Shown piece after piece: positions 4,443 to 21,492 of a stretch of 23,143 nucleotides of DNA. The stretch spans positions 1 to 23,143 of the IMG/VR virus record IMGVR_UViG_3300023119_000129. One strand, 5' to 3'. Made by a program: the position numbers and the translations under genes. Origin of the DNA: a virus. The notes beneath the pieces are model-generated. The model ran no database searches. It was not told the origin of the DNA and worked only from the letters and a program-made list of their open reading frames with translations. The first letter of the stretch is position 1. Every line of letters begins with the position of its first letter.

Positions 4443-4661
4443 TTATTGTCTGACACATCCAGTAGTTTTGGGGTCATCCCATTTACCGCATATGTTTTTA
4501 TAGGCTGGTTTATTGTTTCGTTTTGATGAATTGTCTTTTTTGGGAGGATTGGCTTTTGCTATATCCATCTTGCTGCTAGCACTTGCTTTGCCAAATCTAA
4601 ATGCATCGCCTATTCTATTAATAAGATCAAATGCACCTTCATCAATTTCTACCAATTTCAT
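4443..4661 (-). CDS. Small protein of unknown function (72 aa)
   Basis: The frame is open from 4667, but the ATG at 4661 is preferred because AAGGA lies 6 nt upstream of it. The protein starts MKLVEIDEGAFDLINRIGDAFRFGK, continues with a Ser/Lys/Asn-rich basic middle, and ends with a short Cys-containing tail (ICGKWDDPKTTGCVRQ). The two cysteines and the basic centre could suggest nucleic-acid contact, but no known motif is present. It lies directly downstream of the tmRNA gene, whose 3' processing region runs into its leader. Function unknown. Confidence 0.6.
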   Translation of the reverse strand: MKLVEIDEGAFDLINRIGDAFRFGKASASSKMDIAKANPPKKDNSSKRNNKPAYKNICGKWDDPKTTGCVRQ

Positions 4662-4735
4662 TATCATTCCTTGTTGTGGGAGGTTTTCTGTTGCCGGGCT
4701 TACCCCCTCTAACCCCGAAGCCTCACTACCTATTA

Positions 4736-4807
4736 GGCAGCGACTAGATCACGATCCATTGAAAAATCCAAGGATGTGATAGCTTCAGCAATGAAACTTT
4801 CGTTTGC
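4736..4807 (-). other. tmRNA proteolysis-tag reading frame (24 codons)
   Basis: The resume codon GCA is preceded by AAAT and followed by AACGA, closely like the GCAAACGACG of the E. coli tag start. The encoded tag begins ANESFIAEA and ends MDRDLVAA. A hydrophobic -VAA/-LAA end is the ClpXP recognition signature. Tandem stops TAA and TAG follow. The tag is longer than the usual roughly 10-15 residues. Confidence 0.85.
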
Positions 4808-4887
4808 ATTTATAAAGTTTGATGGTAGGTCATCGCCCTCTTTGCTCCTCTTTGATATCGTTATCCTACGTCGAAACTATCATCCCC

Positions 4888-4915
4888 CAACATACCACTT
4901 CGTAAAATGCTATCT
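4888..4915 (-). other. Intervening segment of permuted tmRNA
   Basis: These 28 nt separate the ACCA 3' end of the acceptor piece (A at 4916) from the first G of the coding piece (4887). In permuted tmRNAs this segment is cut out of the precursor, leaving two RNAs held together by base pairing. The exact cuts are inferred from the acceptor stem. Confidence 0.75.
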
Positions 4916-4983
4916 TGGTGGAGATGAGGGTGGCGAAACCCTGTCCGTAGCAACTATTTTCTCAAGTCATCAAGCAAAATCTT

Positions 4984-5088
4984 TTATCCGATGTCTGGAA
5001 CTGCCAGTGCTGTTTCTAAGACTGCTAATACAACAAATATTACTAACATACATATCAGCCAAATCGCTAAATTCCTTGCATCATTCAT
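4984..5088 (-). CDS. Membrane microprotein (34 aa) upstream of the tmRNA
   Basis: The frame reads MNDARNLAIWLICMLVIF, then VVLAVLETALAVPDIG. Residues 7-24 are a clear hydrophobic transmembrane helix flanked by charged ends. The ATG is exactly 5 nt after a late box (CATAAATA, 5094-5101), predicting a leaderless late transcript, a spacing also seen at two other genes in the window. The stop lies right at the start of the tmRNA acceptor piece, so the frame and the tmRNA precursor probably share a transcript. No family is recognised. It could instead be only the promoter-proximal leader of the tmRNA transcript, but the clean membrane segment favours a real peptide. Confidence 0.5.
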   Translation of the reverse strand: MNDARNLAIWLICMLVIFVVLAVLETALAVPDIG

Positions 5089-5093
5089 ATATA

Positions 5094-5101
5094 TATTTAT
5101 G
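5094..5101 (-). promoter_or_regulatory. T4-type late promoter box before microprotein and tmRNA
   Basis: CATAAATA on the minus strand, overlapping the stop codon of the PAAR gene and 5 nt before the microprotein ATG. It is the best promoter candidate for the tmRNA transcript. Confidence 0.6.
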
Positions 5102-5399
5102 CTGTATAGCTGGTTCCAGAGCCAGATACTATTGTAGCTACATATGGTCCAGCAACGGAGTCGCCAACCCTGGCAACGCCAATTCCATCCGCAAATGATA
5201 CGCCTGATGCTGATACAATTGAGCTTACATGCCCACAGCCTGGAAGGACAGCATCGCCTAATCTTGCTACCCCAGAACCGTCAGCAAATGTTGTACCACT
5301 TCCTGATATAATAACTCCTGAACCACTCCATGGTGACTTTGGATGTCCTAAGGGGCATGTACCTACTGTTGTATCACCTATTCTCGCAATAGCTGGCAT
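5097..5399 (-). CDS. PAAR-domain protein (tail spike tip)
   Basis: At 100 aa it is a single PAAR domain over its full length: MPAIARIGDTTVG at the start, then repeated GxGVAR(L/V)GD blocks (GSGVARLGDAVLPGCGH, GIGVARVGDSVAG) and the alternating Gly/Ser pattern of short beta strands. PAAR proteins form the sharp, metal-bound cone that caps the VgrG/gp5-type spike of contractile tails and pierces the outer membrane. His and Cys residues (CPLGHP, PGCGH) are candidates for the metal site. The gene is last in the nrd-containing operon, one nucleotide after the 58-aa gene. No extra effector domain is fused to it. Confidence 0.92.
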   Translation of the reverse strand: MPAIARIGDTTVGTCPLGHPKSPWSGSGVIISGSGTTFADGSGVARLGDAVLPGCGHVSSIVSASGVSFADGIGVARVGDSVAGPYVATIVSGSGTSYTA

Positions 5400-12331: not shown

Positions 12332-12661
12332 TTAATTTAGCATAGAGGGATCATTATTAGAATCAAAGAAAGTGTCATCATATGAATAATATGGATTATT
12401 ATATGCTGTATCGTGTTCTGCTTGAATAAACTCCACTTCTGGAACGTGTTGGCGGAACATACCTTCGATTCCCATTTGTAACGTATAAGTTGAGCCAGCG
12501 CAGCCACTACAACTACCAGACAGTTGTAATGTTAGAACACCATCTTCAAAACTAATAAAGTTTACCACCCCACCATGCATATCCACCGCAGGTGCTACAT
12601 ACTCTTTTAGAATTTCTTTAATATGTGTAATTACTTCTTCGTTGGTTCTTACTTTTTCCAT
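12332..12661 (-). CDS. NifU/NfuA C-terminal-type Fe-S scaffold protein
   Basis: The 109-aa protein is a NifU C-terminal domain: an N-terminal helix (EEVITHIKEILKEYVAPAVDMHGG), a beta strand pair (VVNFISFEDGVLTLQLSG), then SCSGCAGSTYTLQMGIE with Cys51 and Cys54 that would hold a bridging [4Fe-4S] cluster in a dimer. The last about 30 residues are an acidic Asn/Asp/Tyr tail not part of the family. It would work in the cytoplasm, delivering clusters to client proteins. Which client is unknown; host Fe-S enzymes are possible. The gene has its own near-consensus sigma70 promoter at 12673-12701, with only a few nucleotides of leader before the ATG. Confidence 0.9.
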   Translation of the reverse strand: MEKVRTNEEVITHIKEILKEYVAPAVDMHGGVVNFISFEDGVLTLQLSGSCSGCAGSTYTLQMGIEGMFRQHVPEVEFIQAEHDTAYNNPYYSYDDTFFDSNNDPSMLN

Positions 12662-19510: not shown

Positions 19511-19518
19511 TATTTATC
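19511..19518 (-). promoter_or_regulatory. T4-type late promoter box for the nucleotidyltransferase cassette
   Basis: GATAAATA on the minus strand, overlapping the stop of prs and 18 nt before the ATG of the 87-aa gene. It separates the cassette's late transcription from the sigma70-type prs promoter. Confidence 0.6.
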
Positions 19519-20467
19519 AACTAAACAAACTTGAGATGCTCTCCTCGTTCGTTACTCTACGCATAGCTTCGCCAAATACTTCAGCAACTGTAATCTGTCG
19601 TATCTTTGTTATTTCTTTTGGGCAGCGATCTGATATAGTATCTGTTATAACAAGCTCTGTTAGCAATGATTCTTGTACTTTTTGACATGCCTGTTTAGAT
19701 AATACTCCGTGTGTAATATACGCACGAACTGACAATGCACCTTCATCCATAATAGCTTGAGCAGCATTACAAAGAGTGCCGCCTGAATCAACAATATCAT
19801 CTACTAGGATTGCGTGTTTGCCTTCAACTTCACCAATGAGATTCATTACCTCAGACACTCCAGCTTTGGGTCTTCGTTTATCTACTACAGCAATCTCTCC
19901 GTTGAAGCAATCCGCAAACTTACGAGCACGAACAGCCCCGCCAGCATCTGGTGATACAAACACTAAGTTTGATTCTGAATCATCAACATCAAATAGATTG
20001 AGAGTTTTTTTGATGTCCTTTACAAAGACTAGCCTACTAGTCAAATCATCTACAGGAATGTCAAAGAAGCCTTGGATCTGCCCTGCGTGTAAGTCCATAG
20101 TGAGCACTCTATTAGCGCCTGCTGTAGTAAGCAAGTTGGCTACTAGCTTTGCTGTAATGGGCGTTCTGCTTGCTGATTTGCGGTCCTGCCTAGCATATGG
20201 GAAGTATGGAATAACTGCTGTAATCCGTTTAGCCGACGAGCGTTTTGCTGCGTCAATCATAATGAGCAGTTCCATTAGGTTATCATTTACAGGAGTGTTA
20301 GTGGATTGGATTATAAATACATCCCGTCCTCTGATGTTCTCTTCAAAGGATACTTGGACTTCGCCATCTGCGAACTTGGAAATTGTGCTGGGTAGTATTG
20401 GAACGAAACAGTGTTCAGCTATTCCGTCGGACAGTCTCTTGTTTGAATTGCCTGCGATGATTTTCAT
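19517..20467 (-). CDS. prs: Ribose-phosphate pyrophosphokinase (PRPP synthetase)
   Basis: PRPP synthetase makes phosphoribosyl pyrophosphate from ribose-5-phosphate and ATP, the entry point to purine, pyrimidine and NAD synthesis. The protein is full length (316 aa, usual about 310-320). It shows the N-terminal FADGEVQVSFEENIRGRDVFIIQST, the ATP-contacting PYFPYARQDRKSASRTPITAK, the DLHAGQIQGFFDIPVDDL loop, and the PRPP-binding signature AILVDDIVDSGGTLCNAA (about 215-232). It acts in the cytoplasm. With nrdAB and pstS nearby it would feed nucleotide supply during infection, the usual reading for this gene in marine phages. Promoter at 20497-20525 and Shine-Dalgarno AAGGAG give it independent early-type expression. 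Confidence 0.96.
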   Translation of the reverse strand: MKIIAGNSNKRLSDGIAEHCFVPILPSTISKFADGEVQVSFEENIRGRDVFIIQSTNTPVNDNLMELLIMIDAAKRSSAKRITAVIPYFPYARQDRKSASRTPITAKLVANLLTTAGANRVLTMDLHAGQIQGFFDIPVDDLTSRLVFVKDIKKTLNLFDVDDSESNLVFVSPDAGGAVRARKFADCFNGEIAVVDKRRPKAGVSEVMNLIGEVEGKHAILVDDIVDSGGTLCNAAQAIMDEGALSVRAYITHGVLSKQACQKVQESLLTELVITDTISDRCPKEITKIRQITVAEVFGEAMRRVTNEESISSLFS

Positions 20468-20532: not shown

Positions 20533-21492
20533 TTATTTTACGTTGTCTCTCACTTGGGCAAGCATCTTCTCGTCAAGTGGTACTAGTCCTGCATCTCCAA
20601 GATAGCCCCAGTCTCCCATTGCTGCGTCAGATACATATTCGTTCATGAACTCCTGCATGCCGTGTATCACGCCAACGTGTTGTCCTTTGCCATAAAGGTA
20701 TAGTGGGCGAGCAATTGGATACTCGTATGATTGGATGGTGTCTAAGTTCAATTCTACACCATTTACCTTTGCTCCTTTGATTTTGTCTCCGTTCATATCT
20801 AGAAAGGAGAAACCAAAGATACCAAATAGATTTTCATCAGCCGCTAGTCGTTTTACAATAAGTGTATCGTTTTCGCCTGCTTCTTCTACTCTACCATCTT
20901 CTCTGAACAAGTCGCAGTTCTTCTTGTTTGCGGCTTTGATGTCAGCTGGGCATCCTTTACGCATCACCAACTCTACCCAAGCGTCTCTGGTGCCTGAGGT
21001 TGGAGGAGGTGCTAAAATAAAAATCTCTTGATGTGGGAAGCGAGCATCAATCTCGTCCCAGTAATTTGGCAGACTTCCTTTGGCTGCCATTGCTTGCCAT
21101 AGTTCTTGTACTGTTACATCAAACTGTGGTCCTGTTGTTTTATTAGCAAACGCAATACCGTCGTTGCCAACAATCATTTCAATAATATTAGTTACGCCAT
21201 TGCTTTTACATAATTCTACTTCTGATTGCTTTATATGTCTGCTTGCATTTGTGAAATCTGGATGTTTTGGTCCTAGTCCAGCGCAGAACAATTTCATTCC
21301 ACCACCAGTACCAGTAGATTCTACGATAGGTGTTTTGAATCCTTTTTGTCCGTGCTTCTCAGCTACAATAGTGGTAAAGGGATATACTGTTGATGATCCA
21401 ACAATCTTAATTTGATCTCGCGCCATAGCAGGAGTAGCAGCCAACATAGCTACAGCAAAGAATGCTCCTACCAATTTCATAAATCGATTCAT
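20533..21492 (-). CDS. pstS: Periplasmic phosphate-binding protein PstS
   Basis: The protein is the substrate-binding part of the high-affinity phosphate ABC transporter, exported by a signal peptide (MNRFMKLVGAFFAVAMLAATPAMA, cleavage after AMA). Phosphate-contacting loops are visible: IVGSSTVYPFTTIV near the N-terminus, VESTGTGGGMKLFCAGLG, GNDGIAFAN, and PTSGTRDAWVELVMRKG. At 319 aa it is near full family length. PstA, PstB and PstC are absent, so it would work with the host's own permease to raise phosphate uptake during infection, as proposed for marine phages. AGGAGACAC lies before the ATG. The upstream region has a -10 box, a 19-bp palindrome and a Pho-box-like direct repeat, but no good -35 box. 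Confidence 0.95.
   Translation of the reverse strand: MNRFMKLVGAFFAVAMLAATPAMARDQIKIVGSSTVYPFTTIVAEKHGQKGFKTPIVESTGTGGGMKLFCAGLGPKHPDFTNASRHIKQSEVELCKSNGVTNIIEMIVGNDGIAFANKTTGPQFDVTVQELWQAMAAKGSLPNYWDEIDARFPHQEIFILAPPPTSGTRDAWVELVMRKGCPADIKAANKKNCDLFREDGRVEEAGENDTLIVKRLAADENLFGIFGFSFLDMNGDKIKGAKVNGVELNLDTIQSYEYPIARPLYLYGKGQHVGVIHGMQEFMNEYVSDAAMGDWGYLGDAGLVPLDEKMLAQVRDNVK

Follow-up and report, generated by a model that had tools for sequence, protein, structure and literature searches.

Does the viral DNA analysed here, a stretch of 23,143 nt that we call the window, encode a working tmRNA, and if so, what might a phage gain from it? Two-piece tmRNAs in phages are a known kind. They were described in 2022, with 53 unique sequences in 18,146 phage genomes, 50 of them marine or aquatic (PMC9004378), and a 2025 database holds 79 unique phage tmRNA sequences (PMC11915505). 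The rarity of phage tmRNAs assumed in a preliminary description of the window is therefore not borne out. What appears to be new is the long conserved tag, of which we found no description in the open-access literature searched.

A complete two-piece tmRNA gene

The minus strand of the window holds, at about 4977-4677, a complete circularly permuted two-piece tmRNA gene (Table 1); the preliminary description had placed it at 4681-4983, giving no strand. The merged permuted model of Rfam (RF04321, tmRNA_permuted; curated cut-off 47 bits) matches over its full length at 4977-4733 with 78.5 bits and an E value of 8.3e-14. The lack of any tmRNA covariance-model hit had been named beforehand as an outcome that would speak against the gene, and a score of 78.5 against 47 is the opposite. 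Of the other checks proposed, RF01849 (alpha_tmRNA) scores 49.9 bits (E 1.5e-12) at 5022-4677, just below its cut-off of 50, and ARAGORN makes no call, perhaps because the T-loop has six bases. The core pattern CTCCACCA-spacer-GGGG-WTCGAC has a single match in the window and none in 100 shuffles, which together with the E value of 8e-14 rules out a chance origin.

Table 1. Features of the tmRNA locus and other genes of the window
Feature	Position	Strand	Basis or remark
74-aa ORF, directly downstream of tmRNA	4443..4667	-	no family match
Coding piece	4677..4887	-	RF04321 and RF01849 alignments; 3' end approximate
3' terminal domain	4679..4707	-	GGCAACAGAA motif conserved in RF01849; compensatory stems in relatives
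Tag reading frame ANESFIAEAITSLDFSMDRDLVAA	4730..4807	-	direct reading; protein-level constraint in relatives
P2, CGTAG pairing with CTACG	4870-4866 with 4950-4946	-	direct reading
Acceptor 5' strand GGGGATG	4887-4881	-	direct reading
28-nt spacer between CCA and G1	4888..4915	-	probably removed from precursor
Acceptor piece	4916..4977	-	RF04321 alignment and direct reading; 5' end approximate
CCA	4918-4916	-	direct reading
Discriminator A	4919	-	direct reading
Acceptor 3' strand CATCTCC	4926-4920	-	direct reading
T-arm AGGGT/ACCCT, 6-nt loop	4942-4927	-	direct reading
34-aa predicted membrane ORF MNDARNLAIWLICMLVIFVVLAVLETALAVPDIG, directly upstream of tmRNA	4984..5088	-	50% identical homologue, same place in relatives
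PAAR-motif protein gene, upstream	5097..5399	-	phrog_281, E 3.8e-9; syntenic in relatives
NifU-like gene	12332-12661	-	
PRPP synthetase gene	19517-20467	-	
PstS-like gene	20533-21492	-	

Direct reading recovers all the parts claimed earlier: the acceptor half with its CCA end comes first, the spacer follows, the stem GGGGATG/CATCTCC forms 7/7 pairs with G3-U70 among them, and P2 is in place. The coding piece comprises the acceptor 5' strand, a D-loop-like TTTCGACG followed by the CGTAG of P2, a pseudoknot region, the tag and the 3' terminal domain, where GGGGGT (4707-4702) pairs with ACCTCC (4684-4679) on either side of GGCAACAGAA. The T-loop (AGGGU-UUCGCC-ACCCU) is one base short and lacks the position-58 A of the usual loop; the same 6-nt form is found in two other viral tmRNAs (L226 and L230), both with intact tags. 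Directly upstream of the gene there is no obvious promoter, promoter-like sites there being not above chance, and a glutamine riboswitch was not found in the window.

Relatives, covariation and phage affiliation

As close relatives of the locus we took 16 virus contigs retrieved by the neighbouring PAAR gene at a protein identity of at least 78%. RF04321 matches at the same place in 12 of them, and the remaining four contigs stop about 310-400 bases past the PAAR gene, too early for a full tmRNA. Three IMG/VR contigs from other samples, with a PAAR protein and neighbour genes 100% identical to those of the window, give the same 78.5-bit match, so the gene is not an error of a single assembly. 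In seven relatives RF01849 reaches 51-57 bits and thus exceeds its cut-off of 50. Within its group, no copy is more diverged than that of the window, which shares 192 of 280 aligned bases with L327. ARAGORN calls only one tmRNA among the relatives searched, and since covariance models find genes that it misses, phage tmRNAs are under-annotated.

A search of viral contigs with a pattern of the tag motif yielded 27 stretches, which fall into two lineages, that of the window and a sister lineage; RF04321 scores above its cut-off in all 15 records of this set that had not already been searched. The sister contig L277 shares the gene order nrdB, glutaredoxin, phrog_527-position gene and tmRNA. The acceptor arm of the sister phages is identical to that of bacterial alphaproteobacterial ssrA, with T-arm and acceptor strand matching in L271 and L279, and RF01849 gives 100-142 bits in sister contigs, suggesting that the tmRNA gene is of alphaproteobacterial origin. 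Directly upstream of sister tmRNAs, about 75 nt before the CCA, lies a strong sigma-70-like promoter, TTGACA-N17/18-TATAAA (L259, L260, L262, L263, L267, L268, L271, L274, L275, L279 and L281); no such promoter precedes the gene in the window lineage.

The sister lineage offers two further observations. One member carries a glutamine riboswitch downstream of the tmRNA (L275:6707-6755, plus strand), parallel to that at the 3' domain of the tmRNA of the Methylophilales phage Melnitz (PMC9004378). In four others (L260, L262, L274 and L277) the acceptor and coding pieces are separated by 202 nt, and within this spacer lies a 62-aa ORF (L277:6620-6808, plus strand) preceded by AAGGA. It starts 12 nt after the CCA and ends 1 nt before G1, a protein gene nested in a tmRNA gene; differences at third positions are the commonest class in it, though few distinct sequences exist.

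Pairing was examined in 101 unique viral permuted tmRNAs. Since these had been preselected for at least 6/7 acceptor pairs, the share of paired positions is not independent evidence, whereas the variety of pairs is. Acceptor pair 5 occurs as G-C, C-G, A-U, U-A and G-U, pair 6 is mainly U-A or C-G, and 93 of the 101 have G-U as pair 3-70. Pairs 5-7, which the search pattern leaves free, give a less biased count: among 113 viral hits all three are complementary in 91, and among the 90 hits with an upstream GGAC, in 85. In relatives, compensatory versions take the place of the 3' terminal stem around GGCAACAGAA, which is GGGGGU/ACCUCC in the window.

The small predicted membrane ORF upstream of the tmRNA (NLAIWL..CM...E.AL.VPD) is conserved in most relatives of the window lineage. 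The names PstS-like and NifU-like come from reading the sequences, not from a database match. The host is likely alphaproteobacterial, given that the nearest relatives of the phage PRPP synthetase are alphaproteobacterial ones; with the phage PstS as query, bacterial genomes yielded no relative. NrdA is nearest to cyanomyoviruses (about 71%) and NrdB to Mosig, cyanomyoviruses and HTVC008M (63-65%, with Mosig as top match at 64.8%), and only these two proteins point to a Kyanoviridae-like myophage. The placement of the gene in a late operon of a T4-like phage is not established: the window contains the T4 late promoter TATAAATA about as often as chance predicts (3 observed, 2.3 expected), and a gp23 profile search was uninformative, as it matched nothing anywhere, its controls included.

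The long tag and its family

The tag frame had been described as having a resume context, an LVAA end and two stops, and it reads exactly so. From the resume codon GCA (4807-4805, context ATAAAT-GCA-AAC-GAA) it runs for 24 aa, with the last codon ending at 4736 and followed by TAA (4735-4733) and TAG (4732-4730). It belongs to a family of tags of 24-26 aa, ANxNFxPEAFTSLDMSM..EL(L/V/I)AA, common to the 27 viral stretches, every member of which ends in [LVI]AA. The automatic tag finder over-extends a few tags upstream (to 29 or 32 aa, for example), and extreme lengths were left unused. Summed over all pairs of distinct tag sequences, differences at codon positions 1, 2 and 3 number 126, 76 and 380; these pairs are related by descent and so not independent, but the bias is also visible in single pairs. 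In every pair listed, those with the window included, pN is below pS. In all likelihood, therefore, the long tag is translated and under constraint as a peptide.

Shorter tags, of 9-14 aa and without the middle segment, were read from isolated phages. Melnitz (MZ577095; PMC9004378) resembles the window in having a permuted tmRNA of alphaproteobacterial type in an aquatic phage, upstream of a small phage gene, but its tag ANDNYVPVDYALAA has 14 aa instead of 24. The SsrA of the Pelagibacter phage Mosig (MT647606) is likewise phage-borne and permuted, yet its tag, GEDNFALAA, has 9 aa and its gene neighbourhood differs. The same permuted RNA type is found in the Rhodobacter, Ruegeria and Phaeobacter phages RcXuper, RpoS-V10, DSS3_MAL1 and MD18. 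With MD18 left out, the tags ANENFAPMEMRLAA (RcXuper), ANINNAPMEMAIAA (RpoS-V10) and ANTNAAPMEMAIAA (DSS3_MAL1) were read, each of 14 aa and without the TSLDMSM segment. Direct DNA comparison of the window tmRNA with the isolated phages gave nothing meaningful. As the RcXuper tag and the tag family have an ANENFAP start and an AA end in common (LAA in RcXuper), the family resembles an ordinary phage tag into whose middle a segment has been inserted.

Bacterial alphaproteobacterial ssrA (RF01849) shares with the window the architecture, G3-U70, the resume context and the terminal GGCAACAGAA. It differs in being chromosomal and in its tags, which in our sample are mainly of 9-14 aa (for example, ANDNYAEARLAA) and reach about 22 aa at the longest. 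A sample of 385 alphaproteobacterial genomes, spread evenly over the class, contains no match to the tag-family pattern, though the true host may lie outside this sample; tblastn with the 24-aa tag gave no match, and the motif is found nowhere else in the loci examined. The wider viral set contains two more groups of long phage tags, of 22-25 aa: ANxxALGFADLTV.M..LRLAA (L191, L208, L151, L251) and ANAFKPEVTVP.S.FAD.ELVAA (L205, L231, L173, L224). It also contains a short one, ANESYALAA (L164, L169, L178, L226, L253), which is the tag of two Pelagibacteraceae genomes (L301, L303).

Possible roles of the phage tmRNA

The anatomy of the RNA, its covariation, its conserved place and the protein-level constraint on its tag are directly supported. 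We consider it probable that the gene gives rise to a functional phage-encoded two-piece tmRNA of alphaproteobacterial type, acting in the ordinary way with host SmpB, AlaRS and ClpXP. The precursor of a permuted tmRNA gene is cut into two pieces; here, the cuts at the CCA end and at G1 would be made by host tRNA-processing enzymes, and the acceptor and coding pieces would stay joined through the acceptor stem and P2. G3-U70 directs alanine charging of tmRNA, for which host AlaRS would serve, and host SmpB would deliver the charged RNA to stalled ribosomes. The nascent chain would then gain the 24-residue tag. Two terminal alanines preceded by a hydrophobic residue allow ClpXP-type recognition, so that Leu-Val-Ala-Ala may mark the tagged protein for degradation. 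During infection, ribosomes would be kept circulating and truncated proteins cleared, presumably to the benefit of the phage. Conceivably the phage RNA might also outcompete host ribosome rescue or redirect tagged proteins, as the preliminary description proposed. Against a functional RNA speak the ARAGORN miss, the short T-loop, the status of the window copy as the most diverged one, the lack of an obvious promoter and the lack of a phage SmpB. As SmpB was not found in nine phage records, one of them of 117 kb, the window tmRNA would depend on a match with host SmpB that is unproven.

The same result fits another reading, namely that the main effect of the phage RNA is to titrate host SmpB or AlaRS and thereby to block host trans-translation. 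There is a precedent in the tmRNA of mycobacteriophage DS6A, also a phage-borne derivative, since a DS6A-like molecule strongly inhibits endogenous tmRNA when expressed (PMC4131195; PMC11915505). However, the DS6A molecule consists of the tRNA-like domain only and has no tag frame. A decoy needs no tag either, yet here the frame is kept open under selection at the amino-acid level, with resume context and stops intact, and this makes the decoy improbable in our view. Still less credit can be given to a non-functional passenger, that is, a decaying copy of a host ssrA or the remnant of an attachment site. tmRNA genes are common integration sites, and the window copy, with its shortened T-loop, is the most diverged of the group; nevertheless, relatives carry the gene at the same place, its stems show covariation, purifying selection acts on its tag, and the scanned proteins, a subset of the ORFs, include no integrase. 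The remnant in particular can be rejected, because the gene is complete and not a 3' fragment.

The middle segment raises a different question. Kept by both lineages in the 27 viral stretches, constrained as protein, absent from the 385 bacterial genomes and from the tags read from isolated phages, it might route tagged proteins to a fate or protease adaptor other than that of the host tag. As a rival to the ordinary role we regard this as unlikely: the ANxNF start and the [LVI]AA end are of host type, so ordinary degradation suffices, some hosts have long tags too, and the motif has no second occurrence in the loci examined. It is nonetheless tempting, if tentative, to imagine that an aquatic phage lineage gave its two-piece tmRNA a phage-specific tag of 24-26 residues in which the host-like AN.NF.P start and [LVI]AA end were kept, while a conserved EAFTSLDMSM..EL alters what becomes of tagged proteins during infection or how they are recognised, for instance via a phage or host adaptor. 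If true, the phage tmRNA would be a re-programmed tagging system, beyond a copy of host ribosome rescue. Conservation of the tag at the amino-acid level across divergent phage tmRNAs implies that the phage has a use for tagging as such, beyond the release of ribosomes, and the long tag provides a concrete sequence for testing protease recognition.

Two minor observations concern tmRNAs elsewhere. RcXuper (L332) and Ruegeria phage vB_RpoS-V10 (L333) carry complete-looking permuted tmRNAs with no tmRNA feature in their records. A Hyphomicrobiales genome (G048) has, besides its main permuted tmRNA of 136 bits, two extra ones on contig C30 (L306 and L308; 86.9 bits) with tRNAs nearby, and these extra copies are possibly prophage-borne.
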